From Pseudomonadota bacterium (GTDB lineage: Bacteria > Desulfobacterota > Desulfobulbia > Desulfobulbales > CALZHT01), in the NCBI GenBank assembly GCA_018823135.1, contig JAHJJF010000086.1, positions 1 to 64,000 on the forward strand: a stretch of DNA of 64,000 nt, read 5' to 3'. This document shows positions 8,023 to 57,712 of this stretch, one piece after another. How positions within the stretch are numbered: the first letter of the stretch is position 1; each line of letters opens with the position of its first letter. Under the pieces are notes generated by a model. That model searched no databases and was not told where the DNA came from. It worked only from the letters and a program-made list of their open reading frames with translations. A program made the translations under genes and the position numbers.

Positions 8023-11000
8023 TTATTCATAGAAATAGTACCTGCCCTGTTCAATGCGCAGCAGAGTGTCAAGTTGGAGCCGGATATCGCTTATATCAAT
8101 ACTTTCAATACGAAGTAATGAATCAATGGCTTTTTCGATCTCATGGATATTTACCTGAAGGTCACCAATATCAATGATTACATTTGCTCGAACATTTTCA
8201 AGACAGGCGATGATATCCGCAGCCTTGGCGCTATCCTGGCTTGAGAGCTGCAATGAACTCACTTCACCGATGATACTGTCGATCAGGGCTGCTCTATCCT
8301 GGTCGAGAACAATGTCATAGGTGTCTGTCTGCAGCGGGACATACTGATCCTGATCCATGAAACCGTTTTCAATGGAAAGCGTATAGGTTCCCAATGTATC
8401 GGGCAGGAGAATACTGTACGGCATTACTATGGTTCCTCCTGAAGCAACAGGAAGATTGAAAAACCATGGATTTTCAACAACCCATGTATCGGTTTGCGTA
8501 TCATAAATTCTCAATTCCGGCGGATAGGATATGGCCACGCTTAAGTCAAATCCTCGGCCCGGACTTGTGGTTGTCAAGGCATGAGGCACCATGTGATACG
8601 GCTTGACAATTGACTGGTCAGCAACCTTATGAACGTAGGCCAATGACAGGGTCAACAGATCGGAGAACTCTGCCAAATTGAGATCCGTTATCGCTTCGCT
8701 CAGGTCAAAGGCATAGAATATTGTTTTGCCGATCCCGTAATCACTGAGCACTATGGCTGGATAATTGTTCGAGTTATTGCCGAGAATCCATCCTGCGACA
8801 GTAGCATTGGCAGCTATCTCGACTCTCCAGGCATATGAGTTGACTGCCCAGACATCCGCAGTTGTGATCGGGCTGTCAAGGAGCTGTATCTCATGCTGAC
8901 TGCCTGCCAAGGTACCCTTGTCATTAATGCCAAGGAAGAGATTCTCTCCTTCAAAATGGGTGCCGTGTTCCAGCCAACCGGCACTGACAAGCCCGGTTCC
9001 GGAGTAGACTTTATCCATGAGTTCATCGATGTGGTGGTCGGTAAGAGGCTGTTGATCTCCCAGGATTAGTATGTCGGTGAAAAACGGGTTCCTGAGTTCA
9101 TGCTCGAATTCACTCTTGTCACAGACGATTCGATATTTATCAACCCCATTGCTCAGCATGGTATTAAGAAGATCAATACGCACCTGATCAGAACACTGCG
9201 CCGGAAATGTATTGCCAGTGATGATACGATTCAACCAGACTAGAACGTTTGATTGATCCGCAATCCCGTTAGTTACTTCAAGGGCGGGCAGCACTTCAAG
9301 CGAAGAGATTTCCAGAGTTTTTAATCCGCTCTCTCCGTCTATTTCGACTCCCAGCAGGACATCATAAACCTGGACATTCAGATCAAGTGAAGAAAATGTG
9401 AATATTCCATTATAATTACCCTCGGAAGGCACATTGACGGTGGATACAAAAGCAGCGACACTGCCCGTTACGGGATCATTGATATTCAGTCTGACCGTCA
9501 GGCCCTGGAGATCTTTGGTGCAACCGTTATTAATATGATAAACAAAGGAGATATCCTGGCCAAAGTAGAGCGGATCAGGCCCAATTGTCACCGAACCGGA
9601 GAGCTCGTCAAACGGATTACACAGCTCAATGGTCACTAGTGAAGATACAGCACAGGAAACATTCCCCGCATTATCCGTACCCCTGAACTGAATACTGTGT
9701 TCGCCTTCATCTTCAGCCAGAGGGATGTATGCCAGCGAGTAAACCCCGGATATCTGGTTGGTTAAAGGAATGGGCAGCCAGGTGCGAGAATCGATCCTGT
9801 ACTCCACTCCTGACACCCCGGACGCATCATCGGTCGCCTTAACCTCCAGGTCGAAGATACCGTTCAGAATGCTTGCCTGCACCGGTGAAATAATTTCAAC
9901 AATCGGAGCAGTGAGATCTTTTACGGTGAATATTGTATCCCCGATATGCAGCATGGTCTGTTCGTGATATGCCTGCATTAGGATTGTATAGTTGCCGAGT
10001 GATAGGAGGTCGGCAGGGAACGTGACGTTGCCTGTAAGGGTATCACCAAGGATAAGGTCAACTGATTCCACAGCTGTCGCAATAATAGTGCTTGTTAATG
10101 AATCGAGTAGGAGGATGTTGAGTTCCACCGCCCCGGCTGAGGCATTGCCAGTGTTTGTTATTGTGTAGTGGGCTGTGGCCCCATTTCCAAAAGTCACTAC
10201 TTCGGGATCAATCGTAACCGCACCGGAAAGTTCGGACACAGTATCGATAACAAATGCCGAGGAATCCTGGGCAACGATCTCGTTATTCAATAAGCAAGTG
10301 AGTTCTATCAGGTAATCTCCAGGAGCAACGAGGCCTGTATTCCAGGAAGACTTCAAACTTACATTTGTATCGCTCAATAGAGCCAGATTATCAAAATAAT
10401 TTAAACCGACTTCAGTACCCTCGCTATCCTTGATTGTCATCTGAACATCTAGACCGGCAACTAATGAATTAAGACTATTATTGGCAACCGTTATGTTAAC
10501 GGAAACATCCTCTTCAGGTCCGAAATGTATCTTCGCCGTTGACACGGCTGCTTCAATAACCAATTCCGGCAGAATGACAAAAGGAATGATGGTCTCTTTG
10601 ATGGTTATACTGGCAGAATCTTTCAGGTTGGCCCGCAGTTGATAGTTTCCAGCAAAAATATCCGTGGTATTCCAGTAAAGGATATAATTATCAACAACGC
10701 CGTATGTTAGAGTCGCATAAAGAGAATCAAAATTTTCTACCAGATAGCTGTTCTCATCCTCGATTGTGATATCGAGAGTGACATCTTGATCAAGGCCACT
10801 ATTAAACAAGTCAATAATGACAGATAGATAATCGTAACTGCGGTATTGATCCGAATCGAGCATTACACTCATTGCAATTCCATGTTCCTCAACTACATAA
10901 AAATCCTTGTTTGCATTATTATTTGTTTCTGATGCCTCGTTAAACACATCCTGCGGATCAACTGTTACATAGATAGTGTTCCTTCCGACATTTCCTGTTG

Positions 11001-45026: not shown

Positions 45027-45440
45027 TTACAGATTATTTGCTGGACGAGATAATCCCTCTGCTGGTGGTGGGGACATCCGACAGCAGATTTCTATCCTTT
45101 CTACCAGTTCATCCACCTCAATGGGTTTTAAACAATAATCATATGCCCCGAACTCTATGCCTCGGATACCTGACTGCATGGACGCGTGGCCGGACAGTAT
45201 AATCACCGGGATTTCTGGCCATTTCTGCTTTATCTCCTTGAGGAATAGCAGGCCATCTCTGTCCGGCAACATGACATCCAAGACAACCACATCCACCCCG
45301 CCAATATCGAGAAACCGGGAAGCATTAAGACAATTGCCGGCGCATTTAACCAGATAACCCCGCCTGAGAAGACTTTTCCGGGTGGCCTCCAGAAAATCTG
45401 CCTCATCATCAACCAGCAGGATGTTAATTATCTTTCTCAT
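45027..45440 (-). CDS. Stand-alone response regulator receiver protein
   Basis: ATG 45440 has GAGGAGAAAGG upstream and gives 137 residues. It is a complete receiver domain: Asp11/Asp12 (VDDE), phospho-acceptor Asp55 in VVLDVMLP, Ser83 in ILSGHA and Lys105 in CLKP. A short unstructured tail follows with no DNA-binding or enzymatic output domain. It overlaps the 3' end of the PEP-synthase-like gene by 17 bases, so the two are co-translated. It probably takes phosphate from one of the island's two histidine kinases and controls its partner by protein contact. Confidence 0.9.
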   Translation of the reverse strand: MRKIINILLVDDEADFLEATRKSLLRRGYLVKCAGNCLNASRFLDIGGVDVVVLDVMLPDRDGLLFLKEIKQKWPEIPVIILSGHASMQSGIRGIEFGAYDYCLKPIEVDELVERIEICCRMSPPPAEGLSRPANNL

Positions 45441-48009
45441 TGCCTTTCTCCTCATCATGCGCTTTATCCATAATGTTTGCGAGGTCTGCCATTATCTTCC
45501 GCTTGTAACGATCCAAGATGGCCTCCTCACCCAGGACCATATCGATCTGGCGTGTATGAATGAGCAGATACCCGAGTAATGCCAGTCGGTCTTTGAGATA
45601 TGCCGCCGGATATTTTTCAAGGCGGGCCGTAAGTGCGTCTCTTATCAAGTCGACCCGGAAACCATACAATCGGAGAATCTCAGCCAGAAGAGTAACTCGC
45701 ACCAGTCGGCGTCTTTCATCGGCTGCCCCCCCTTTGAACTGGAAACTGATATAATTCTCAGTAAGAAATTCCCCAAGATTTGCCTCGACAAGCGCAAAAT
45801 GATAGCCAAGCCGGACACTCAAATTGCAGAAATTCCTTGAAACAAGAAAATAATTCCTGCCGCCCATGCTGGCACCTACAGCCGGCTCCAGACGCGGGTC
45901 CATGGTTGACTGCAAAATAATTGACCCGAAGCCCCTCAGGTTAACAGGCGGGGGGCCTTCCCACGGGACAGCCACCATGCCGCGCCAGACAGCATGCATG
46001 GGTTCGGATTGAATATCATCAAGACTTACGTATTTACTTTCTGGTTGGACATTTTCACTGAAACCATCGTCAAGGTTGATCACCCACCACTGGAAGGGCG
46101 TCTTGACAACCAGTTGTTTTGCCGAACGCTTGTCAAATCGATATTTCATCCCGAATTGAAATATTTCCTGTACCGCTTTTTCATGACAGAAACGAGTTAT
46201 GTCATGAAGCGTCCGGCAGTATGACGGGGCGAATTGAACCGCTTTGGGATCAGTCAGATTCAGTGGGGAAATCTCCTGCAAAACTCTTTGTAAAATCTTG
46301 TAAACCGGGCTGCCAACCATGAGTTTGACTGCCGGCTGACTCCGGGCGATACGCTCAGCATCCTTTCCCCGGCAGATAACATTTTCAATAGCATCTACCG
46401 TAAGGATTTCACCATCATTATATGTGGAAAAAGCATCTTCCACTCCAAAAATAGCCGGGACTCCAAATTCACGGGCAACCGTTGCCAGATGGGCGGCCGC
46501 CTCCCCGGCAGCACTGATTATGGCCACCGCATGACTCACCAAGACCGCCCAGTCGGAATGGGGATAACGCACAAGGAGCACGGCTCCTCTGGGAAACTGC
46601 AGCAGATCGACCTGAGACTCCACCTTAAAAACCGGCCCTGAAGCAATTCCCCGGCTGACCGCTATTCCACCTGGACAGATGGCGGCATCTGTATTCTGGT
46701 CATCTCCGGCAGAAGCAAGGGCGGTAGCCTGAAAAGTTTCGGAATCGAGAGGGCGGCTCTGCAGAATGACCAGTTTCCCTTCGGAATCAAAAGACCACTC
46801 AATATCCTGAGGGCCACCAAAATGTTTTTCAAGCAGCAGCGTGGCTTGTGCCAGTTCCTGAATTTGTTCATCTGACAAAAGAAAGACGCCCTCTGTCTGC
46901 CGGTTATCCGGCGTATTCGTTACTCCAGGGCTTTTGAATACAATTGGAAATGGTTGCTGGCGATTCAAATGATAAACATCGCACGGCGCTTCACCTTCCA
47001 CAACGTTTGCCGCAGTCCCGGCAACAGCATAGATATGCATCAGATTGCTGCCGGCATTTGAATAGGAAACGCCGCTGACTGTTGCATCGATCATCATCAG
47101 GCATCCGACGCACATTACGATATCCTGATGCCTGTACCCCCGCCGCAGACGATAGACAAGGGCCTGACTTTTATACTTGCCGGCGAGTATCTCCTTGTAG
47201 GTATGGCCCAGGAAGTCGGGATGCACGTCGAGTTGCGTCCTGTATTGGCCGGCAAAGGAAGTGTTGACAAGGTCCTCGCCTGAGGCGCTTGATCGCATGG
47301 AGACAAGAATTTCCCGGCCTTGCCGCACCGCAAGCTGATAATAGGCTTGATTAATCTGACTATCGAGATCTTCAGGCATCCTGGAATTGACAATAAGATT
47401 CTGAACAGCGGCACTGACCGTGAAAAGATCTTCAAGATCGTCCTCGTTCAACTGCTTGAGACGACGGTTGATTTCATCCTGAAGATTATTCGTTGTGATG
47501 AAATGCCGGGCTGCTTCAGCGGTAATCACAAAGCCGTCTGGTGTGTTCAACCCGAGATGCTTGCGGATTTCACCGAGATTTGCCATCTTTTCGCCGACGG
47601 CATCAACGGAATGCCGGTCAATCTCCGACAGGGGGAGAACAAAGGGCTGAATCAGATCGGAAAATATGGGCCTGCTGGCAATGGTGTTTTCGATTCGTAA
47701 TGATATTTCCTTGAAACGTGGAATAATACTCTCATATCTTCCGTCAGCAAGTTCCACGAGATTTATGACCATTTTATAGACATTTGCCGTTAGAGCGGTA
47801 CAATTCCCGCGGACAAAAGCCATGCCGAAAGAGCGTCCGGAATTAAGGGTCTGCTCCATCTCAGCCATTAATTTCAGGGCATTATTATTGGCGGTAAGCA
47901 GGGATCGAAATACCTTGAAATGTTGTTGAAAGGTCGCCTGGAGATCGACAGGATCTAATCCCGGTCCTCCGCGAAAGAGCTGTATGATATATTTTACAAA
48001 GCTATGCAT
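45424..48009 (-). CDS. PEP-synthase-like protein with ATP-grasp and mobile domains but no PEP barrel
   Basis: This is an 861-residue protein. Residues of about 1-130 are helical and unfamiliar. About 135-430 match the pyruvate/phosphate dikinase ATP-binding domain (GEKMANLGEIRKHLG, VSMRSSASGEDLVNTSFAGQYRT, QDIEWSFDSEGKLVILQSRPL). About 470-560 match the swivelling phosphohistidine domain, with His507 in GEAAAHLATVAREFGVPAIFG, although the usual T-S before the His is A-A. The C-terminal 300 residues do not look like the PEP/pyruvate barrel (NLSVRLGYHFALVEANLGE, FKGGAADERRR). Phosphotransfer from ATP to His507 is plausible but the acceptor is unknown. A weak ribosome site precedes ATG 48009, and a receiver gene overlaps the end. 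Confidence 0.82.
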   Translation of the reverse strand: MHSFVKYIIQLFRGGPGLDPVDLQATFQQHFKVFRSLLTANNNALKLMAEMEQTLNSGRSFGMAFVRGNCTALTANVYKMVINLVELADGRYESIIPRFKEISLRIENTIASRPIFSDLIQPFVLPLSEIDRHSVDAVGEKMANLGEIRKHLGLNTPDGFVITAEAARHFITTNNLQDEINRRLKQLNEDDLEDLFTVSAAVQNLIVNSRMPEDLDSQINQAYYQLAVRQGREILVSMRSSASGEDLVNTSFAGQYRTQLDVHPDFLGHTYKEILAGKYKSQALVYRLRRGYRHQDIVMCVGCLMMIDATVSGVSYSNAGSNLMHIYAVAGTAANVVEGEAPCDVYHLNRQQPFPIVFKSPGVTNTPDNRQTEGVFLLSDEQIQELAQATLLLEKHFGGPQDIEWSFDSEGKLVILQSRPLDSETFQATALASAGDDQNTDAAICPGGIAVSRGIASGPVFKVESQVDLLQFPRGAVLLVRYPHSDWAVLVSHAVAIISAAGEAAAHLATVAREFGVPAIFGVEDAFSTYNDGEILTVDAIENVICRGKDAERIARSQPAVKLMVGSPVYKILQRVLQEISPLNLTDPKAVQFAPSYCRTLHDITRFCHEKAVQEIFQFGMKYRFDKRSAKQLVVKTPFQWWVINLDDGFSENVQPESKYVSLDDIQSEPMHAVWRGMVAVPWEGPPPVNLRGFGSIILQSTMDPRLEPAVGASMGGRNYFLVSRNFCNLSVRLGYHFALVEANLGEFLTENYISFQFKGGAADERRRLVRVTLLAEILRLYGFRVDLIRDALTARLEKYPAAYLKDRLALLGYLLIHTRQIDMVLGEEAILDRYKRKIMADLANIMDKAHDEEKGNEKDN

Positions 48010-48107
48010 GGCTTTGGTACTGTTCTCATTCGGTGCGAATATGGAGTATCAGACACATCATTTGATGACTTTTAATCCCTCCTGAAAAAAATTGCATGTT
48101 TTCAGAC

Positions 48108-48157
48108 AAAAAAAGCGCCACAAGGTGGAAGAGGAGTATCTGAGCCCTGTGGCGCTT
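48108..48157 (-). terminator. Rho-independent terminator after the two-helix membrane protein gene
   Basis: On the minus strand the arm AAGCGCCACA pairs perfectly with TGTGGCGCTT across a 25-base loop, followed by TTTTTTG. It separates the sigma-54-driven genes from the PEP-synthase-like gene, so readthrough or a second promoter is needed for the latter. Confidence 0.8.
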
Positions 48158-48233
48158 AATTGAAACTTGGCTGAATGAGACGCGGCAAGGGAGAGCAGTC
48201 TTCTATAACTGCAAAACCGCTTTCAACCAGGCA

Positions 48234-48920
48234 TCAATGTTCCAACTTCAATCCCCAGCCCTCGAACATGAAAAGAATGGAAAAACCGAACCATAATGTA
48301 TAAATGACATACCCCACCAGGGAAACAACCACAATTGCCGCTTTATCCTTAATGCTCTCGGCCGGAATGCCGTAGTAATTATAGGCCGGCTCCACTCCCC
48401 TGGTCTGCGACTTGTTAATAATCTTGGCTTCTTTGAACATCTTCTGTTTATTGAAGTCCTTTTCCGCAGCCTTGAGGGCATACCACCAGTCATACATAAC
48501 CTGCTTTGCTTCTAAACCGTATTTTGCGGCAAATGCCTGCCCGTCATTAGCAAACGCCATATCGGCATCATTGAGAATATTTTCAAGCATCAGGCCAAGA
48601 CCACCTTCCACTTTGACATTTACGTCATCAACCGCAACCCGAGCATCGCCTGCCTTAAAAAGCTTGGCATACCGTTTGGCCTGCTCGGGGCTGCCGGCTT
48701 TTATGTTCAAGGTGACCTGCTGGCCCTTGTACTGTTGCGCCTCTTTCACCACGCCCGGAATGTAATAAGCTGATTTCTTTGAAATGGTATTATACAGATT
48801 GTCCATATAATTCAGGATGTTCTGACCGGCAAAGAGTGGCGACATGCCGATGGCGAATACTATCCAGAAACCGATAAACAGCAGCAGGCCGCCGCCGAAT
48901 TCTTTCTTGTTGGCAATCAT
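48234..48920 (-). CDS. Two-helix membrane protein of unknown function, partner of TauE/SafE
   Basis: This 228-residue protein has an N-terminal transmembrane helix (about 11-31, LLLFIGFWIVFAIGMSPLF) and a C-terminal one (about 196-220, IVVVSLVGYVIYTLWFGFSILF). Between them is a soluble, probably periplasmic region of about 160 residues with YNTISKKSAYYIPGVVKEAQQYKG and the pattern DVNVKVEGGLGLMLENI. I do not recognise the family. Its ATG overlaps the TauE/SafE stop (ATGA), so the two are translationally coupled. It is likely a subunit or periplasmic binding partner of the exporter. A strong terminator follows. Confidence 0.8.
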   Translation of the reverse strand: MIANKKEFGGGLLLFIGFWIVFAIGMSPLFAGQNILNYMDNLYNTISKKSAYYIPGVVKEAQQYKGQQVTLNIKAGSPEQAKRYAKLFKAGDARVAVDDVNVKVEGGLGLMLENILNDADMAFANDGQAFAAKYGLEAKQVMYDWWYALKAAEKDFNKQKMFKEAKIINKSQTRGVEPAYNYYGIPAESIKDKAAIVVVSLVGYVIYTLWFGFSILFMFEGWGLKLEH

Positions 48921-50206
48921 GCGTGCACCCCCTCACCCTTCAGTGTTTTTATATTCATCAGAAAAGTACCAATTACCCAGATCGCAAAAATTGAGATGAC
49001 CACGAAAAAGAGATAGACGCCAATCTGTTCCAGAATTTTTCCGGTATTGTCGGATATGGTAATGACATCCATTTTGCCAAGCTTGGCGGGCAGGGCGAAG
49101 ACCCGATTGACAAACCCGGCAAGTACCGCCGTGGCGTAAAAACCCCGGATAGTGGTGCCGGGAACAACCTTGGTCACCAGCGAACCGATCTGAATTCCGA
49201 GCAGTGAGCCAAGCAGCATGCCGATGGCCAGGGTATAAAAGATGAACCCATAGATGGCGTACTGACCAAGACCTGCATACCCGGCGGTAAAGATAATCTG
49301 GAAGATGTCGGTGCCAACCGTGGTTGCCGAGGAAACACCAAGGCCGTACACGAAAATCGGGAAGGTGAGAAAGCCGCCGCCGACACCCATGATGGCTGCG
49401 GCGAGGCCTACAATGGCACCGCTGATCACCAGAAAAATTGCCGAGATCTTGCGGCCGCCCGGCACCACGCCCTGGTCGAAATGCAGCATGGGCGGAATGT
49501 TGACGGACTGAATTTTCTGGGCCAGGCCGGTCATTGATTCACCGCCTGCATCAACATCGCCGGTTTTTGCAGCCTTTGCGGCAGACTTTCTTGCCGACAG
49601 GCAATCAGCCAGGGAATAAAACCCCAGAAAACCCAGCATGATCACATAGACTGTGGTAATAAAGGCATCGCTTAAAACAGGGTTCAATTCATAGAGAGTG
49701 CGATTGATATAGCCGCCCAGAGTGGCCCCGCCGATGGAGCCGATCAGAAAGGTCCCTGCCAGCGATACAGAGATGTTGCCGAGTTTACGATGCAGGACAC
49801 TGCCCATAATCGCCTTGGCAAAAATATGAAACAGGTCGGTGCCCACCGCCAGAATTCCTTTTACGCCTGCGCTCATCAGGGCCGGGGCAATTATAAAACC
49901 ACCGCCCGCTCCGATACAGCCGGTGATGAGCCCTGCACAAAGGCCGACACCGATGGAAGCAAAGAAGATGGTATTCGTGTAAAATGCCGGGCTATAGGCC
50001 TTTTTACCGCCCAGAACATCCGGCAGGGCGATGGCGATTTCTTCCGCAAATGCGATGCCACCCAAAACAATCGGGATCAGCAGCAGCCCTAAAATCATCA
50101 GACGTCGGCGACTCTGCAATATCCGCCGGGACGTGTCCAGGTCCCAGGCAGCATAGGCCTGCGCCCCAGACATCATCATCTCATATAACTGTTTTCCCAT
50201 CTTCAT
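48917..50206 (-). CDS. TauE/SafE-family membrane transporter (sulfite/organosulfonate exporter type)
   Basis: The protein has 429 residues, with GGGAGG 10 bases before ATG 50206. It is a polytopic membrane protein with the two inverted TauE/SafE halves. Each half carries the glycine-rich signature: GLCAGLITGCIGAGGGFIIAPAL in the first and GLAAAIMGVGGGFLTFPIFVYG in the second, each followed by VGTDLFHI or VGTDIFQI. An extended N-terminus (about 50 residues) and a loop of about 60 residues between the halves (AKAAKTGDVDAGGES) make it longer than typical members (about 250-300). The family moves sulfite, sulfonates and similar anions. Here it is coupled to a novel membrane protein and lies inside a two-component island. 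Confidence 0.9.
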   Translation of the reverse strand: MKMGKQLYEMMMSGAQAYAAWDLDTSRRILQSRRRLMILGLLLIPIVLGGIAFAEEIAIALPDVLGGKKAYSPAFYTNTIFFASIGVGLCAGLITGCIGAGGGFIIAPALMSAGVKGILAVGTDLFHIFAKAIMGSVLHRKLGNISVSLAGTFLIGSIGGATLGGYINRTLYELNPVLSDAFITTVYVIMLGFLGFYSLADCLSARKSAAKAAKTGDVDAGGESMTGLAQKIQSVNIPPMLHFDQGVVPGGRKISAIFLVISGAIVGLAAAIMGVGGGFLTFPIFVYGLGVSSATTVGTDIFQIIFTAGYAGLGQYAIYGFIFYTLAIGMLLGSLLGIQIGSLVTKVVPGTTIRGFYATAVLAGFVNRVFALPAKLGKMDVITISDNTGKILEQIGVYLFFVVISIFAIWVIGTFLMNIKTLKGEGVHA

Positions 50207-50265
50207 CTTTTGTTTTCCTCCCTCAAGTGTTCAAGTTTATTTTTCATGTCGCTTTTTTTTATTTT

Positions 50266-50291
50266 CCGGGACAATGCTCGTTTTTGTCCGG
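50266..50291 (-). repeat. Intra-operon hairpin between receiver and TauE/SafE genes
   Basis: CCGGACAA pairs with TTGTCCCGG (one bulged G). It starts directly after the stop of the receiver at 50294 and is followed by an A-rich run, not T. It is therefore more likely an mRNA-processing or stability hairpin than a terminator. Confidence 0.5.
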
Positions 50292-50293
50292 TG

Positions 50294-50707
50294 TTAAACT
50301 GTATCGTTGCAATTCTGCTGCAGGAGGATCTTGCCGTAAGGCTCACACTTGAGCAGGAGACAGAGCTTTTCCAGCAAGGTCTCAAGCTCCACCGGCTTTA
50401 TGAGGTATTCCACTGCACCCTGAAGCATGCTTTCCTTACCATCACTGGCTGAGGCATGTCCGGTCAGCATGACTACAATGGTTTCAGGACTGACACACCG
50501 TATAGTCCGCAATACATGGACGCCATTGGTATCCGGCAGCAGCATATCCAGCACCACCGCATCAAAGTGGCCTGTGGAAATTTTCTTGATTGCATCGGCG
50601 CCATTGTATGCTGATTCGCAGTTGACACCGCGCATCAGCAGCCTTTTGGCCAGACAGTCAACAAAATCCCTTTCATCGTCCACGAGCAGAATTCGTTTAT
50701 TCCTCAT
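50294..50707 (-). CDS. Stand-alone response regulator receiver protein
   Basis: The 137-residue receiver is complete: Asp10/Asp11 (VDDE), phospho-acceptor Asp54 in AVVLDMLLP, Thr82 in MLTGHA and Lys104 in LIKP. A tail of about 30 residues has no recognised domain. Its start overlaps the stop of the upstream histidine kinase (ATGA at 50704-50707), so kinase and receiver are made together and are a likely cognate pair. A hairpin and an 87-base gap separate it from TauE/SafE. Confidence 0.9.
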   Translation of the reverse strand: MRNKRILLVDDERDFVDCLAKRLLMRGVNCESAYNGADAIKKISTGHFDAVVLDMLLPDTNGVHVLRTIRCVSPETIVVMLTGHASASDGKESMLQGAVEYLIKPVELETLLEKLCLLLKCEPYGKILLQQNCNDTV

Positions 50708-52386
50708 AATTTTTCCTCATGGGTCTGAACTTCGACCTTATTATTCAAACTCAAAGAAACCGTGAAGAGACACCCTCCCTGCTCCCGGTTAACCACTTCA
50801 AGATCACCATTCATCTTCTGCATGATATTGCGTGAAATTAATAACCCGAGTCCGGTCCCCTTGCCTTTCTCCTTTGTGGTGTAAAATGGCTGAAAAATTT
50901 TATCTGTATCGTGTTCGGGTATCCCTGGACCCGTATCAGCAAACTGCACATGAATCCTGCCATCCACCTGCAAAGTACTTACGGTAATGACTCCTTCGCT
51001 GCCGATGGCATCAATAGCGTTATTTAGAATGTTGAGAAACACCTGCTGCAACTGTGTTGCCTCAGTTCTTACCACCGGCAGACCCTCCGCATATTCTCGC
51101 TTGATAATAATCCGGTTGCTGCACGCCTCTTTTTCCAGAAGATTTATCGTTTCTTCGACGATCTTGTTAATATCCGTTTCAAACCATTCCCCATCATCTG
51201 AACCGGCAAACCCAAGCAGGCGTTTCGTAATGCCCCCTGCACGCCTGACCTGAGTTCGAATTTTTTCAATAGCTCGAAGAGCTTCCTGATGATCGTAAGC
51301 TTGACCTTCCGTTTCCTGCTCCAGCAGCTCGTTTATCCACCCAGCCTGTGCACTAATGACTTGCAGCGGATTATTTATCTCATGAGCGACACTGGCGGCC
51401 AGACGACCGATCAGGGCCATCTTTTCAACCTCTCTGACCTTATCCGTCAGGTTCATCCTCTGTTCTTCCGCGCGTTCAATTTTATTTACCAGGGGGTTTA
51501 TCACTAACCTGGCGACAATAAGGATCAGGAGCGCGGTTCCCACGATAACGGTGAGCCCGATTTTTCTGGCCTGATAAAAATCTTTGAGTGAAGAAGGGAT
51601 ATCAGTTTTCAGGACCAGCAGCCAGTTACCCCTGTTTAATGGCGCCACAGCATAAAGATAATTATTATAGGAGGTTACCTTAACACCTCTACTGGCGATT
51701 TCGTGCAGCATGCGGACGTGACCCGGATCAAAAATCGTCTGCCCGAGACGGCTCGTTGTCTGCATCTCGCCTTGACGGCTAATTATAAAGGCGTCACCAT
51801 TTGGTCCGACATTGGCACTGGCAACCAGGGCATTAAACATTTCAGAATTGATCGTTGCCCTTAACAGCCATGATCTGTCTTGTGATGCGACTGCAACAAC
51901 AAGATGGGGTACACCGCGGTAACCGGTGAATACATCACTCACATATCTGCCTTGTTTCATGACCTCGACAAACCAAGGGGAATCCGCATAATTTTTTCCC
52001 ACCAGCCTTTCCGTAAAAGGCCCAACATAGGCTAGATGGCGCCCAGCCCCGTCAATAACACCAAGATCAGTCATCACATTGTTTCGGTTAACCGCAAAAA
52101 AAACCTTCTCCAGCCTGTCTACCCGGCTGAGCTCTTCCTGCATAAAGAGTTGCAAAAGTCCGCCAAGCAGATCTTCCTGATTGGCAAGGAAGAGATCGAT
52201 CAGCTCTTTTCTGCTTTCTGAAAAACTTGAGAGTTCGTTTTCTGTCTTGGTCAACCAGGAATCTTGAAAAAGTTTTGAGGAGTTCCAGTTGATAAAAATC
52301 AGCGGTAGAATGGCAAGCAGGATAATCACCAGGCTAAAAATCCTTTTCTGGCCGGAATAGTAATCCGCCCGCGGTTTCTGCTTCAT
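50704..52386 (-). CDS. Sensor histidine kinase with periplasmic dCache-like domain
   Basis: I start at ATG 52386 (560 residues), which has GGGGAAG upstream and a basic stretch before helix 1 (about 14-33, FSLVIILLAILPLIFINW). A periplasmic sensor of about 260 residues follows (VFFAVNRNNVMTDLGVIDGAGRHLAYVGPF, then KNYADSPWFVEVMKQGRYVSDVFTGYRG), as in dCache domains that bind small ligands. After a second helix (LTVIVGTALLILIVARLVI) comes the kinase core: VAHEINNPLQ (His335), NILNNAIDAIG, DTGPGIP and GTGLGLLISR. All ATP-binding boxes are intact. The kinase is paralogous to the one at 55976 on the other arm of the island. Confidence 0.9.
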   Translation of the reverse strand: MKQKPRADYYSGQKRIFSLVIILLAILPLIFINWNSSKLFQDSWLTKTENELSSFSESRKELIDLFLANQEDLLGGLLQLFMQEELSRVDRLEKVFFAVNRNNVMTDLGVIDGAGRHLAYVGPFTERLVGKNYADSPWFVEVMKQGRYVSDVFTGYRGVPHLVVAVASQDRSWLLRATINSEMFNALVASANVGPNGDAFIISRQGEMQTTSRLGQTIFDPGHVRMLHEIASRGVKVTSYNNYLYAVAPLNRGNWLLVLKTDIPSSLKDFYQARKIGLTVIVGTALLILIVARLVINPLVNKIERAEEQRMNLTDKVREVEKMALIGRLAASVAHEINNPLQVISAQAGWINELLEQETEGQAYDHQEALRAIEKIRTQVRRAGGITKRLLGFAGSDDGEWFETDINKIVEETINLLEKEACSNRIIIKREYAEGLPVVRTEATQLQQVFLNILNNAIDAIGSEGVITVSTLQVDGRIHVQFADTGPGIPEHDTDKIFQPFYTTKEKGKGTGLGLLISRNIMQKMNGDLEVVNREQGGCLFTVSLSLNNKVEVQTHEEKL

Positions 52387-52489
52387 TACTTCCCCGGGGA
52401 TGGTGGCGAAATACATTTTCACGGCAGGCAGGGCTCCCTGCGTGCCGCCCTGCCGATTACCATCACCTGATGCCACCGACTAACTCTTT

Positions 52490-52933
52490 TCATCTTGCTA
52501 TTTTCCGTGCCGTCTCAAATTCACCTGCCTCGGCAAAGGCAACCGCGGCCATCGTATTGTTTTTATTCATTTCTCTGTGCGCTGATCTGATTCTGTCCAC
52601 CAGCATCTCGATATCAACAGGCTTTTTCAGGTAATCAAAAGCCCCCAGGCGTCGCGCCTCGCCCTCTTCAAGATCATTGCCGTGGCCGGTAAGAATTATG
52701 ACCTGAATCCTCGGGTAGTGCTCTTTCACCCTGCGCAGAACTTCCATTCCGTCCAACCCCGGCATCTTTAGGTCAAGAACGATGATGTCAGGAAGATTCT
52801 GCCCCACATATCGCAAGGCATCCTTGCCGTTCAAGGCCGTTTTACTTTTAAGGTCTCTCAAGTCCAGTAGCTCAGAAATGGAAACGATAAAATCTTCCTC
52901 GTCATCAACCAGTAATATTTTAATGTCCTCCAT
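52490..52933 (-). CDS. Response regulator receiver protein with C-terminal FAEAGE tail
   Basis: The 147-residue product has a strong GAGGAGAGG ribosome site. The receiver is intact: Asp10/Asp11, Asp54 in IIVLDLKMP, Thr82 in ILTGHG, Lys104 in LKKP. The last 25 residues read MNKNNTMAAVAFAEAGEFETARKIAR (in two parts here: MNKNNTMAAVAFAEAG and EFETARKIAR). The FAEAGE motif (133-138) recurs in the two small proteins encoded just upstream. The tail resembles one TPR helix pair, A-x8-G-x4-A, and may be a shared docking surface. No DNA-binding domain is present. The gene ends 104 bases before the kinase start. Confidence 0.9.
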   Translation of the reverse strand: MEDIKILLVDDEEDFIVSISELLDLRDLKSKTALNGKDALRYVGQNLPDIIVLDLKMPGLDGMEVLRRVKEHYPRIQVIILTGHGNDLEEGEARRLGAFDYLKKPVDIEMLVDRIRSAHREMNKNNTMAAVAFAEAGEFETARKIAR

Positions 52934-52989
52934 AAAGCCTCTCCTCTATAATGTTTTTGCAACTTATGGTTAAATCATACGATCGATGG

Positions 52990-53106
52990 TTATTCATGGT
53001 CTGTTGTTTCATCTTCATCCAAGAAATCCAGGGCGCTTTCAAATTCCCCGGCTTGAGCAAAGGTTGCAGCAGCCATTGTCTGTCTGATTTTTTCACCTAG
53101 CGACAT
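52990..53106 (-). CDS. 38-residue small protein carrying the FAEAGE-type motif
   Basis: This short frame starts at ATG 53106 inside the end of the degenerate receiver gene and overlaps it by ten bases. AAAGG lies eight bases upstream, with GAGGA abutting the start. It encodes MSLGEKIRQTMAAATFAQAG followed by EFESALDFLDEDETTDHE and then TAA. Residues 16-21 (FAQAGE) and the surrounding pattern match the tail of the receiver just downstream and the 103-residue protein just upstream. The match in an otherwise unconstrained position, the overlap and the ribosome site argue that it is real. The acidic tail (DEDETTDHE) may mediate contact. Function is unknown. Confidence 0.7.
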   Translation of the reverse strand: MSLGEKIRQTMAAATFAQAGEFESALDFLDEDETTDHE

Positions 53107-53501
53107 TCCTCGCCGCCTTTTGACCGATTTTTTTCTCCGACTACAGGCTTCCAGAATTTTTTTTTTAATGTGTCGGTGTCGAACGGGACGGTGAGTTCGT
53201 CAGAAGCACCGGCCTGCATACCATCCATGGATGCATTAACCCGGTCGCTGGTGTTCAGCAGAATGACCTCCACATATTTTGATTTCTGCCGCAACCGGTG
53301 CAGAAATCTCACTGCCTTTTCCGGGGTGCACCGGATATCAAGGAGGACGACATCAATATTGTCCAACAAGAGATAATTGGGATCTTCCCAGCTATCTTGG
53401 GCCTCTTCATGCCATATTGCATAAATTTTCCAGGCTTCAATGGTTCTGCAGAGCATCTGTGCAAATTCCGCATCCAAGGTTTTGATATACACCGTGCTCA
53501 T
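53097..53501 (-). CDS. Degenerate receiver-like protein
   Basis: The product has 134 residues with GGAG eight bases before the ATG. The fold is that of a receiver: VVLLDIRCTPEK places Asp55 at the phospho-acceptor position, and VEVILLNTSD then GASDELTVPFD follow the order of strands 4 and 5. Three key positions have changed. The paired N-terminal acids are absent (only Asp10), the Thr/Ser position is Asn83, and the invariant Lys before Pro is Val105. The protein may therefore not accept phosphate and could act as a constitutive or decoy binding partner. The stop overlaps the start of the 38-residue gene. Confidence 0.8.
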   Translation of the reverse strand: MSTVYIKTLDAEFAQMLCRTIEAWKIYAIWHEEAQDSWEDPNYLLLDNIDVVLLDIRCTPEKAVRFLHRLRQKSKYVEVILLNTSDRVNASMDGMQAGASDELTVPFDTDTLKKKFWKPVVGEKNRSKGGEECR

Positions 53502-53550
53502 GAAGTGGACTCCGATCCGCCTTTCCGAGGGAATACCCTGCGGAGCTCTT

Positions 53551-53862
53551 TCATTCCCCTGGTTCCCATGCTAAGGCCCCATAGGACATGCGAATGCCCT
53601 CCAGGCCTAATGTCTTAATAAAATCCATGATGTATTGATTTTCATGATGTTCATCTTCCATCAGCCGAACGGCTTCGGCATGCAGTCCTTCCTCTGCAAA
53701 GGCAACTGCCATAAACACTTTGAAGAAGTGCGGAATTTTTCGACTTATACCCCGAACCACAGGAATCATGGCCCTTGCGGTATCCCATTCCCCTGCTTCA
53801 GCAAAGGTGATGGCATTCATCCAACTCTGATGGGTCTGATCCGTATTCATCTTCTTGTTCAT
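53551..53862 (-). CDS. 103-residue protein with two FAEAGE-type motifs; first gene after the sigma-54 promoter
   Basis: ATG 53862 has an ideal GGGAGG site and sits 64 bases from the sigma-54 promoter. Two copies of the motif are visible: AITFAEAGEWDTAR (FAEAGE at 20-25) and AVAFAEEGLHAEAV (FAEEG at 55-59), separated by a basic helix (RGISRKIPHFFKVF). The periodicity matches TPR-like helical hairpins. It has no signal peptide, helix long enough to span a membrane, or known catalytic motif. I do not recognise it. As the first product of the induced transcript it may be a small adaptor for the receivers that follow. A 49-base gap separates it from the degenerate receiver. Confidence 0.8.
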   Translation of the reverse strand: MNKKMNTDQTHQSWMNAITFAEAGEWDTARAMIPVVRGISRKIPHFFKVFMAVAFAEEGLHAEAVRLMEDEHHENQYIMDFIKTLGLEGIRMSYGALAWEPGE

Positions 53863-54217
53863 GGCGTAACCTCCCTTGCAAAATAATTGATCGTCATACA
53901 ACGTTTTGCGCTTGACTTAATAAAAAGCAATGTTCGTGCCATGATCGAAAATAGCTGCAAATTCAAACAGTTACCCGAAACAACACCCCGTCACCCGACT
54001 CAAAATAAACGAGACAGAGAACAAATCGACACACAACGATACAGTTTAATGATATCTCGCAGCACCGAAAACAAGGCTCTAATTCCACGCAAACCACCAA
54101 TAACAAAGAAACTTATTGACATTCAAGGTGCAAAAAAGTACAAAACAACTCAAGACATATCGATACACAATCTGTCTAATAAAACAAAAACAGCCGGATA
54201 GTCGGCATCCACCAACC
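53863..54217. other. Divergent control region of the regulatory island
   Basis: The gap contains the leftward sigma-54 promoter (53926-53941). The rightward gene must be expressed from a promoter further right (53942-54217), which I could not assign. Enhancer-like sites for the activator are expected 80-200 bases upstream of the promoter, that is within about 54020-54140, but I found no clear palindrome by eye. Confidence 0.6.
53926..53941 (-). promoter_or_regulatory. Consensus sigma-54 (-24/-12) promoter
   Basis: The minus strand reads TGGCACGAACATTGCT, an exact match to TGGCACG-N4-TTGC with the GG and GC at the right spacing. The start site would be about 12 bases left of the GC, near 53916. 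The 103-residue gene follows 64 bases downstream with a strong ribosome site. The sigma-54 activator gene diverges from the other side of the same control region. Confidence 0.93.
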
Positions 54218-55609
54218 ATGGTTCTGCACATGAAAAAACAGAATCCCCCCCTTGATGAGCATATCAGCCTTCTTGAGGTCATCAATTCCTTGCCGCACGG
54301 AGTGGCTGTGCTTGGCCAAGATGGCACTATAGCCAAGATGAATCACTATCTGGAGGCATGCACAGGCTATGCGACAGAAAAGGTCTGTGGCACATCGGTT
54401 GACCAGGTAATTCGCACCAACCTTGCCATTCACAGCAAATTTTTTCTGCAGACAGCTTCCCGCGAAGAACAGATCATAATGGAAGGGGATACTATCAATG
54501 CGAACCGGAAAAGAGTGCCGGTGCGCCTGACCCTTTCACCGCTCTTCGGTGAAACCCATGAGGTGAAGTGCTTTCTGCTACTGCTTGAAGATTTGTCATC
54601 CCAGCGTGCCATTCAACAAAATATCCATGATGACGGAAAAAAAATGGGAATCATCGGCCACAGTCCGAAAATGCAGGAAATTTTTGAACTGCTGCCAATC
54701 CTCACACACACCGACACCACATTATTGATAACCGGCGAGACCGGCACCGGAAAAGACTTCCTTGCAGAGACTATCCATCAGCTCTCCAGTCGATCAAAAG
54801 CACCCTTCATCAAGGTCAATTGCGGCGCCCTCCCGGAGGCCCTGCTTGAATCGGAACTGTTCGGTTACGTTCGCGGCGCTTTTACCGGGGCGCACGCCGA
54901 CAAGCCAGGCATGTTCAGGCTTTCTCAGGGAGGCACCATTTTCCTGACAGAGATTGGCGATCTGCCGGTAGCCCTCCAGACCAAGCTCCTCACGGTGCTT
55001 GACGATAAGGAATTTTATCCATTGGGCAGCTCAAAAAAAGTAAAGGTCGATGTTCGCCTGATTACCGCCACTCACCACGACCTCCGTCGACTGGTTCAGC
55101 AGGGTAAATTCCGGGAAGATCTTTACTATCGTCTCAACGTTCTGCGCACCCACCTGCCGCCGCTCCGCGAGCGAGGCGACGATATCAAGCTGCTGCTGGA
55201 ACATTTTCTCCATAAATTTTCACAAACCCTGGAGAAGAATATCAGGGGGTTCAATCAGGACGCAGAAACATGTCTTCTGGATTACCACTTTCCCGGCAAT
55301 GTCAGAGAGTTGAGTAACATTGCGGAATACGCCGCAAATATATGCCAGGGTGAACTGATCAAGTTTTCACACCTGCCCGCATATCTGCATACAGCCATAG
55401 CGGATATTCCCGAACCGGCGGACAGCACGAAAACTACCGGCCAGGGCAATGAACGCGCTGCAACAATCTCTAACTGGTCTCATTTTGAAAAGAAAAAGAT
55501 TTTCGACAGCCTGGTAAACACCGATGGCAACCGTACCCAGACTGCCAAACAATTAGGATGGGGCCGAAGCAAGCTCTGGCGGAAGATGAAGCTCTACGGT
55601 CTTGAATGA
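54218..55609 (+). CDS. Sigma-54-dependent transcriptional activator (PAS, AAA+, Fis-type HTH)
   Basis: I start at ATG 54218 (463 residues); ATG 54230 is also possible, and neither has a clear ribosome site. An N-terminal PAS domain (VINSLPHGVAVLGQDGTIAK) replaces the usual receiver. The AAA+ domain has Walker A GETGTGKD (about 173), the sigma-54-contacting GAFTGA (220-225) and the Walker B region GGTIFLTEIGDLP. Arg fingers and DYHFPGNVRELSN follow, then a Fis-type helix-turn-helix (NRTQTAKQLGWGRSKLWRKM). It is the obvious activator for the divergent sigma-54 promoter. Its signal is probably a small molecule or redox state sensed by PAS, or contact with an island receiver. Confidence 0.93.
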   Translation: MVLHMKKQNPPLDEHISLLEVINSLPHGVAVLGQDGTIAKMNHYLEACTGYATEKVCGTSVDQVIRTNLAIHSKFFLQTASREEQIIMEGDTINANRKRVPVRLTLSPLFGETHEVKCFLLLLEDLSSQRAIQQNIHDDGKKMGIIGHSPKMQEIFELLPILTHTDTTLLITGETGTGKDFLAETIHQLSSRSKAPFIKVNCGALPEALLESELFGYVRGAFTGAHADKPGMFRLSQGGTIFLTEIGDLPVALQTKLLTVLDDKEFYPLGSSKKVKVDVRLITATHHDLRRLVQQGKFREDLYYRLNVLRTHLPPLRERGDDIKLLLEHFLHKFSQTLEKNIRGFNQDAETCLLDYHFPGNVRELSNIAEYAANICQGELIKFSHLPAYLHTAIADIPEPADSTKTTGQGNERAATISNWSHFEKKKIFDSLVNTDGNRTQTAKQLGWGRSKLWRKMKLYGLE

Positions 55610-55619
55610 GGACAGCTCA

Positions 55620-55979
55620 GTGAAAATCCTGCTCACCCTTCTTGAGGATTACATCGCTCCACGTTTTGATCTCACAACCAAGGTGATCATCACGGAAGCA
55701 CAACAAGGGGTCCCCCCCACATCGAGGACCATCCTGCTGCCGGGTCCGTCAAGCGACGAACTCTGCAGCCTCATCCTTAAAGAAAACATTACCCTGGTTG
55801 TGTGCGGCGGCATTGAAGAAAGACATTACCAATACCTCTGCTGGAAGAAGATAGAAATTATCGACCGGGTCATCGGATCAGCTGATTGTGTCCTCCATTC
55901 ATTAATCAACGGGGATCTTCAGCCAGGAAAAGTTGTCCGGGAAATTCAACCCTCGACCCCATCCAAGGAAAAATCATGA
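55620..55979 (+). CDS. NifX/NifB-type dinitrogenase cofactor-binding-like protein
   Basis: GTG 55620 is preferred: GAGGA lies about 6 bases upstream and the protein then begins MKILLTLLEDYIAPRFDLTTKV, as expected for the fold. The 119-residue product matches the NifX-like family (PF02579 type): PRFDL, a central LLPGPSSDELCSLI, then VVCGGIEERHYQYLCWKKIEIIDRVIG. In nitrogen fixation such proteins carry FeMo-cofactor precursors, but stand-alone members occur in many anaerobes. Cys residues are in CS, VCGG and LCW. It is within the activator-kinase-receiver transcript, which suggests a sensing role, perhaps for a metal-sulfur species. The downstream kinase overlaps its stop by ATGA. Confidence 0.8.
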   Translation: MKILLTLLEDYIAPRFDLTTKVIITEAQQGVPPTSRTILLPGPSSDELCSLILKENITLVVCGGIEERHYQYLCWKKIEIIDRVIGSADCVLHSLINGDLQPGKVVREIQPSTPSKEKS

Positions 55980-57712
55980 AATCACCTTGGCTCCGCCTCA
56001 TTCGCTTCACCCAGAACCAGTTCGTCTTCTGCATCAATGATTCGAACCTTTCTGCCCAGCAGCGCTATCTGTACCTCAGAAGAGGCCTGCTTTTGATCCT
56101 GTGCATGGTCGCGATGATTCCATTGATCATCACCGCCGGACTCAGCTACAATCAATACCGGCAGGTGGTAAAAGAGGAAGTGGAAAGCAATGCCCGCTGG
56201 AGCACGGTGAGCACCAAACAGAATATTGAGACTTTTTTGGGCAAACTGCGGTCATCAATATCCATCATCGCAGATGCATATTCATTCATGGATCTGACGC
56301 AGCAGAATACTCTTGACCTGGTTTTTGAAAAACTCAAACACGAAAATCCAGGGGTGGTTGATTTAAGTGTAATCGGACCAGACGGTGTTCAGCAGACCTA
56401 CTCCGGCCCTTTCAACCTGACGGGCAAAAATTACGCCGAAAGCCTCTGGTATAGCAAAACACTGGCCCAGCAAAGTTACATCAGCGAAGTCTTCCTGGGC
56501 TTTCGCAATCTGCCGCATTTTGTTGTTGCAGTGAGCAGAAAGATCTCAACCGACAACAGCCACTGGATTTTGCGGGCGAGCATTGACACGGAAACAATTG
56601 ACCGTTTTCTGCTGTCAATCCATTCCGATATAGTAGAGGACGTTTTTCTTGTGAACAGCGCAGGCCTGCTGCAAAGCTCCTCGAGTTTTTACGGAAAGGT
56701 CGGCGCACAAAGTCCTTTAACTAAAATTCCACGCAAAAACAGGTTGAATCTTGTCGAGGAATACCGCAATTCCAAACCGATAATCCGAACCTACAGCCCC
56801 ATAAAGGACACCCCCTGGACTCTTGTCCTGGAACATACCCAATATGCAGAGAAAAAACCCTGGCGCCAATTCAAACGCAAACTGCTGATCATTCTCTGTG
56901 TCTGTTCATTGTTAATCGTCATCGCTGCTTACCGCATAGCAGGATTTGTTGCCGCATCGATCCGTAGTGCGGATGAAGCGCGAGAAGCCCTACTTGCCCA
57001 GACCGAACATAATGACAAACTTGCTTCCATTGGCAGGCTGGCTGCAGGTGTTGCCCACGAAATAAACAACCCTCTGGCCATTATCCATGCCAAGGCCCAG
57101 CTATTAAAGGATCTACTGGCATTAACAAAGGATTTTGAATATCGAGAAAAATTCTTAGCACAACTAGACTCACAGCAGAAGGCCGTTGCCAGAAGCCGAG
57201 ACATAACCCACCGGCTCCTGGGCTTTGCCCGCAGAATGGAAAGCAAGCTTGAACCGGTGTGGATCAACATGGTAATCGAGGAAGTTTTAAGCTTTCTTGA
57301 AAGGGAGGCTCAGTACAAGAGCGTCCGGATCGATCTTGATCTGCAACAGGATCTGCCGGCCATCACCAGTGACCAGGGGCAGCTCCAGCAGATTCTCTTC
57401 AACATCATCAACAATGCCATTGATTCTGTGGACAAGAACAGCAGCATTGAGATCAGAACAAAGAAAGTGGAGCCGGCTGCCATCCGGATTGAAATATCAG
57501 ACCACGGCCCCGGCATGTCTCCCGAGATCCAGAAAAAAATATTTGAACCATTTTTCACGACAAAGAATGAAAAAGATAAACAGGGGACCGGGCTCGGGCT
57601 GTTTATCACATATGGCCTGGTGAAAAAGCTCCATGGAGACATCCAGGTCCAAAGCGTTGTGGGAATCGGCACAACCTTCATTCTAAGTTTTCCAGAACAG
57701 AGGCAAGATTAG
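55976..57712 (+). CDS. Sensor histidine kinase with periplasmic dCache-like domain (paralogue of 50704)
   Basis: ATG 55976 lies behind AAGGAA and overlaps the NifX-like stop. The product has 578 residues. Helix 1 is at about 40-62 (LLLILCMVAMIPLIITAGL). The periplasmic domain (LDLVFEKLKHENPGVVDLSVIGPDGVQQTYSGPF, then KNYAESLWYSKTLAQQSYISEVFLGFRNLPHFVVAV) mirrors the other kinase in order and wording, so the two are homologues. Helix 2 is near 305-330 (LLIILCVCSLLIVIAAYRI). The core has VAHEINNPLA (His361), NIINNAIDSVD, DHGPGMS and GTGLGLFIT, all intact. Its partner is probably the receiver at 57712, with which it shares one base. Confidence 0.92.
   Translation: MKSPWLRLIRFTQNQFVFCINDSNLSAQQRYLYLRRGLLLILCMVAMIPLIITAGLSYNQYRQVVKEEVESNARWSTVSTKQNIETFLGKLRSSISIIADAYSFMDLTQQNTLDLVFEKLKHENPGVVDLSVIGPDGVQQTYSGPFNLTGKNYAESLWYSKTLAQQSYISEVFLGFRNLPHFVVAVSRKISTDNSHWILRASIDTETIDRFLLSIHSDIVEDVFLVNSAGLLQSSSSFYGKVGAQSPLTKIPRKNRLNLVEEYRNSKPIIRTYSPIKDTPWTLVLEHTQYAEKKPWRQFKRKLLIILCVCSLLIVIAAYRIAGFVAASIRSADEAREALLAQTEHNDKLASIGRLAAGVAHEINNPLAIIHAKAQLLKDLLALTKDFEYREKFLAQLDSQQKAVARSRDITHRLLGFARRMESKLEPVWINMVIEEVLSFLEREAQYKSVRIDLDLQQDLPAITSDQGQLQQILFNIINNAIDSVDKNSSIEIRTKKVEPAAIRIEISDHGPGMSPEIQKKIFEPFFTTKNEKDKQGTGLGLFITYGLVKKLHGDIQVQSVVGIGTTFILSFPEQRQD

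Follow-up and report, generated by a model that had tools for sequence, protein, structure and literature searches.

Transporter-linked regulators in described systems

Universal stress proteins can act on transporters, as TeaD does on TeaABC. A second such pair is Rv2623 and Rv1747, in which a universal stress protein likewise acts on a transporter (PMC5549992). In Desulfovibrio, insertions in the TauE, neighbouring hypothetical, receiver and PPDK-like genes of one cluster lead to nitrate-resistant growth, which the authors put down to a leaky transporter, perhaps one for thiosulfate, having been lost (PMC4001038). The window analysed here (the whole stretch of 64,000 nucleotides) contains TauE, receiver, PPDK-like and kinase genes at 45424-52933, in agreement with the gene list published for the Desulfovibrio cluster, the homology of the two being judged by published annotation only.

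Gene content of the window

The reverse strand of the window encodes a 103-aa small protein (53551-53862), a 134-aa degenerate receiver (53097-53501), a 147-aa receiver (52490-52933), a dCache histidine kinase in the same operon (50704-52476; domain scan from 52401) and a plain receiver that lacks the module described below (50294-50707). These are followed by a TauE/SafE permease (48917-50206), extended at its N-terminus by MKMGKQLYEMMMSGAQAYAAWDLDTSRRIL, a 228-aa protein with hydrophobic ends and no Pfam family (48234-48920) and, two genes past TauE, a PEP-synthase-like protein with PPDK_N and PEP-utilizers domains (45424-48009). The 228-aa protein adjoins this type of TauE in all seven of the clusters compared, and its C-terminus, YVIYTLWFGFSILFMFEGWGLKLEH, is strictly kept. 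Divergently, on the forward strand, lie a PAS/sigma-54 activator (54116-55609; domain scan from 54221), a small FeMo-co-biosynthesis-type protein (55602-55979), for which the match is weak here and clear in a homologue, and a second dCache histidine kinase in the divergent operon (55886-57712; domain scan from 55961). The FeMo-co-biosynthesis-like protein also recurs beside the divergent kinase at locus L084 (5505-5855).

The 147-aa receiver is a strong match to Response_reg (96 bits, above the cut-off; E=1.6e-27) and has the Asp pocket. The 134-aa protein scores 31.9 bits against a cut-off of 30.2 and its pocket is degraded; it retains the phospho-Asp region VLLDIR and has VPF in place of the usual KP motif.

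A repeated module in neighbouring proteins

Four copies of a segment of about 29 residues, with the general pattern F-x3-M-x-A-A-T-FAEAGE-[FHW]-[DE]-T-A-R-x2-L, are present in the window, and the module as a whole is predicted to be helical and about 30 amino acids long. As the preliminary description had noted, FAEAGE and FAEEG occur in the 103-aa protein, FAQAGE in a 38-aa open reading frame (52990-53106, reverse strand) and FAEAGEFETARK at the C-terminal end of the 147-aa receiver. In the first of these the module occurs twice, at about 53749-53838 and 53644-53730, and the protein also has a conserved C-terminal 'LGL-GIR-TYG' segment; single copies are at 53005-53094 in the 38-aa frame and at about 52493-52567 in the receiver tail. 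A count over every open frame of 30 aa or more in the window gives three occurrences of FA[EQ]AGE, always within the same 1.3 kb, and shuffles of the same residues give 0.01 occurrences on average. Profile E-values are 4e-13 for the first copy of the 103-aa protein, 1.3e-11 for the 38-aa frame and 3e-11 for the receiver tail, with a profile built partly from those same copies. The shuffles and the E-values together rule out chance similarity.

The motif was previously ascribed to three proteins of different kinds, and it is indeed common to three, but the 38-residue one is the frameshifted tail of the degenerate receiver. The 38-aa frame overlaps the degenerate receiver and extends it in another frame, and the tail frame read from a run of ten A residues (53157-53166, reverse strand), at which the receiver departs from it, is KKKILEACSRRKKSVKRRRGMSLGEKIRQTMAAATFAQAGEF, matching the uninterrupted homologue at L075, LKKKIMAACRRHKKRSHKKESRSLFDRFSDSMAAATFAQAGEF. 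Because of this overlap and frame continuation we assign the 38-aa frame to the degenerate receiver. In L010/L075, L008, L079, L081, L102 and elsewhere the homologue of that receiver is one continuous protein, in most cases of 166-189 aa, with FAQAGE and a short tail at its end; these homologues are uninterrupted at the A10 run, which rules out an independent small protein. Assembly error, genuine mutation and slippage could each account for the frame break. The three module proteins thus come down to one small protein with two copies and two tailed receivers, one of which is degenerate.

Distribution of the module and its hosts

Searched with a profile built from 30 segments, 44 of 116 genomes from the order contain the module (E<=0.001; best 5e-16), as do 37 of 395 from the phylum (E<=1e-6). 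Three module clusters, the window, L008 and L009, are present in the genome containing the window. When named genomes were scanned with a degenerate DNA pattern, at least 119 stretches matched, and 116 of the 119 listed contain the module at more than 22 bits; L115, L142 and L213 are not real modules. Among the matches listed are Desulfobulbaceae, Desulfurivibrio, Desulfobacterales, Thermodesulfatator, Halodesulfovibrio and many Nitrospirota/Thermodesulfovibrionia, as well as Magnetococcales, Thiotrichaceae, Chromatiales, Ignavibacteriaceae (Ignavibacteria), Melioribacteraceae, Latescibacterota and Thermoleophilia. The scan selected on the motif, so that conservation figures derived from it are biased; the survey of the order is free of that selection. 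As had been predicted, the module turns up again close to TauE/SafE genes, both in small proteins and in the tails of receivers.

The position of the module varies with the host. It is C-terminal in receivers and degenerate receivers, N-terminal or internal in universal-stress-protein-like hosts, and N-terminal in small proteins with two transmembrane segments (2-TM proteins). Free module proteins of 33-62 aa exist, and small proteins with two to three copies are 97-133 aa long. At L133 (Nitrospirota, 4649-7312) and L225 (3724-5796) it lies inside a PPDK_N/PEP-utilizers protein; in both, the insertion is within the PPDK_N domain stretch of this PEP-synthase-like protein. Locus L199 has a degenerate receiver and a receiver fused in one 353-aa frame with both modules. 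The universal stress proteins, the 2-TM proteins, the PEP-synthase-like protein and the location beside transporters of other folds all go beyond the preliminary description. The sequences show one homologous module of about 29 residues joined to regulators whose folds are unrelated, in most cases encoded alongside a membrane transporter of the anion/citrate type and a histidine kinase/sigma-54 pair. In the L091 protein (8745-9140) the module stands three times in tandem, and the near identity of the first and second copies marks a recent duplication.

Operon organization

Three operon layouts recur among the module loci. Type I, that of the window, consists of the small protein, degenerate receiver, receiver, kinase, receiver, TauE, 228-aa protein and PPDK-like gene, with a variant at L008 that has a CBS protein and a DASS symporter. 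Type II has one or more free modules, two stress proteins, a CitMHS/TrkA_C transporter and an NhaD-like gene. Type III has a free module, a stress protein, a 2-TM protein, TauE and a tandem stress protein, and the N-terminal region of its TauE differs. Residues 1-36 of the window's TauE (48917-50206) form a conserved extension of this TauE type (..MMMGARAHAKWEIDTSRRIL..), which is present in Nitrospirota too. A search of this extension with the module profile gave no match, and profile-profile comparison gave a weak resemblance (probability 21%, E 0.001 over 30 columns), so that it is at most a tentative candidate for a diverged module. Proteins grouped as cluster 17 were discarded as antisense shadow frames at the position of TauE in other operons.

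Forty-seven loci are well flanked (4 kb or more on each side), and in 35 of them a TauE/SafE, CitMHS/TrkA_C or DASS transporter lies within 5 kb. TauE genes number only four across the 3.6 Mb of the window's genome, so the proximity of module and transporter is not background. The other 12 have no transporter of a modelled family within 5 kb (L070, L074, L078, L082, L083, L089, L104, L229, L230, L232, L240 and L241), and at L241 a TauE gene lies slightly beyond that distance (L254). A kinase or sigma-54 regulator is present in 45 of the 47, and both are usually close to module operons and often divergent from them. A sigma-54 regulator of about 670-690 aa adjoins free module proteins at L076, L085, L089, L104, L119, L148 and L173, sometimes without a transporter. 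A cytosolic degenerate histidine kinase of about 220-235 aa is a constant neighbour of module receivers (L008 6235-6948, L084, L137 and L241); it belongs to DASS-type and single-copy clusters and is a candidate partner of the module.

Relationship to tetratricopeptide repeats

The module resembles the suggested TPR helix pair in its period, its consensus positions and its predicted helices. Where copies are in tandem the period is about 34 residues, with starts at 4, 38 and 72 (L091) or 4, 39 and 72 (L069). TPRs have hydrophobic or small residues at consensus positions 8, 11, 15, 17, 20 and 24, and the module has A8, F11, G15, an aromatic residue or H at 17, A20 and L24. The model of the 103-aa protein (pLDDT 74, pTM 0.50) has two predicted helix pairs, at residues 7-22/26-32 and 45-57/61-69; the folds that come closest to it are those of MamA, PcrH and designed TPR/PPR proteins, none at E<=0.001. 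In the model of the 147-aa receiver the domain is confident and alpha5 continues into the tail (helix 108-135, then 139-146), where pLDDT is about 58-65.

Module matches to all curated Pfam TPR models are below cut-off, including TPR_4 for the 103-aa protein (19.2 bits, cut-off 27) and TPR_6 for the three-copy L091 protein (14.4 bits, cut-off 26.3). Profile matches to solved structures are weak and limited to synthetic PPR and designed TPR proteins, and a search of solved structures with the module alone found nothing meaningful. Most hosts have one copy, some two and rarely three, and not several stacked repeats per chain as in TPR proteins. Because the curated cut-offs are not reached, we file the module as a putative lone TPR-like hairpin outside the TPR families. 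Five positions that are free in TPRs are fixed in the module: A14 (100%), E15 (94%), A16 (83%), E18 (79%) and T21 (71%), as counted over 413 distinct copies that carry the bias of motif selection. Since this predicted surface is the same on hosts without a common fold, it points to a shared partner.

The earlier statement that no named domain fits is upheld, with no entry describing the module in Pfam, NCBIfam, PHROGs or the PDB. A full-text literature search for FAEAGE retrieved no paper and broader searches found no description of the module. The predicted fold is TPR-like, and the use proposed for it here is absent from the libraries and literature searched.

A possible docking function

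The preliminary description proposed a common docking partner or mutual oligomerisation. Six near-complete genomes, including the one-contig G382 and the two-contig G491, have exactly one module copy even at E<=0.5, and in all six it sits in a TauE or CitMHS/TrkA_C transporter cluster; in one of them, G437, a neighbouring stress protein has a 12-bit module remnant. A second, different module protein is therefore not required, and obligate pairing between different module proteins appears unlikely. Docking on a non-module protein of the cluster, or homotypic self-association, fits better than obligate hetero-oligomerisation. Two or more module genes are present at 60 of the 75 flanked loci, and where several co-occur they may share one site.

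The same co-occurrence speaks for the alternative that the modules bind each other, each protein giving one hairpin to a composite multi-subunit TPR array. Single TPR hairpins are usually unstable alone, natural tandems of two or three copies have the 34-residue period, and two module receivers are fused at L199, but in the single-copy genomes, the one-contig G382 among them, only a homotypic version survives, and we regard this explanation as unlikely. It is less probable still that the module is an ordinary TPR motif with no special role, a helical cap that stabilises each host. The TPR consensus positions, the weak TPR_4, TPR_6 and designed TPR/PPR matches and the continuation of receiver alpha5 into the tail are all compatible with a cap, yet every TPR match is below its curated cut-off, residues that vary in TPRs are fixed across hosts of unlike folds, the free proteins of 33-62 aa have nothing to cap, and the link to transporter clusters is left unexplained. 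A targeting or cargo tag (compare encapsulation peptides) or a degradation tag in place of transporter docking is very improbable: it would account for a short helix at the N-terminus, C-terminus or interior of many unrelated proteins of one operon, but no shell or encapsulin family is found among the recurrent neighbours of module loci, tandem copies, free copies and module-bearing 2-TM proteins fit poorly, and the constant neighbours are transporters and kinases.

We favour, with moderate confidence, a role for the module as a docking tag, a TPR-like helix hairpin that would gather regulators at a transporter complex. Its presence on unrelated regulators beside transporters in many sulfur-cycling bacteria is the reason to think that it probably does so. 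Homology, hosts, gene context and the single-copy genomes are what the sequences show; that the module docks, where it does so and which way control runs we infer. The tag would hold soluble signal carriers, namely phosphorylatable receivers, universal stress proteins and the PEP-synthase-like phosphotransferase, at a shared site. This site could be formed by the transporter together with its small membrane partner, or by a self-associated hub; because the transporters are of unrelated families, it is hard to see one site that all of them would share. Kinase or energy signals would then set transporter activity through the docked regulators. The transporter in the window would be the TauE/SafE permease (48917-50206), and in the operon type with stress proteins the module-bearing 2-TM proteins could serve as membrane anchor.

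More tentatively, the module may be an undescribed adaptor that marks cytoplasmic regulators, with receivers, stress proteins and a PEP-linked phosphotransferase being swappable at one docking site, and with two-component and energy signals acting directly on transport and not on transcription. If so, output-less receivers and small stress proteins in these bacteria would gain an output, the transporter, and a module missing from current family libraries would become a sequence handle for predicting post-translationally regulated transporters and their signals. It would also offer a testable reason for the common nitrate phenotype of several Desulfovibrio cluster genes, which has weight for souring control.

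Comparison with known systems

The Desulfovibrio 'nitrate cluster' (DVU0251-DVU0245 / Dde_0597-Dde_0605) resembles the window in having TauE/SafE, a conserved hypothetical, a histidine kinase, a receiver and a PPDK/PEP-utilising protein (PMC4001038), and the phenotype common to its mutants lends the docking model independent support. Unlike the window it also encodes a phosphatase and a PtxB-like protein. No module is reported in it, and its receiver DVU0247, of about 119 aa (360 bp), cannot accommodate a tail, indicating that such a cluster can work without the module. TPR (Pfam TPR_4/TPR_6) and PPR hairpins share with the module the 34-residue tandem period, the consensus positions and the predicted helix pair, whereas the module is usually single, has its own fixed signature A-E-A-x-E-x-[DE]-T that generic TPRs do not require, and sits on stress and signalling proteins that are encoded at transporter loci. 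We know of no such module in the contacts of TeaD with TeaABC or of Rv2623 with Rv1747, and the transporter families there differ from those of the module loci. Both pairs are nevertheless parallels in how the module loci may work, since in all of them stress proteins are encoded with, or bind, a transporter.
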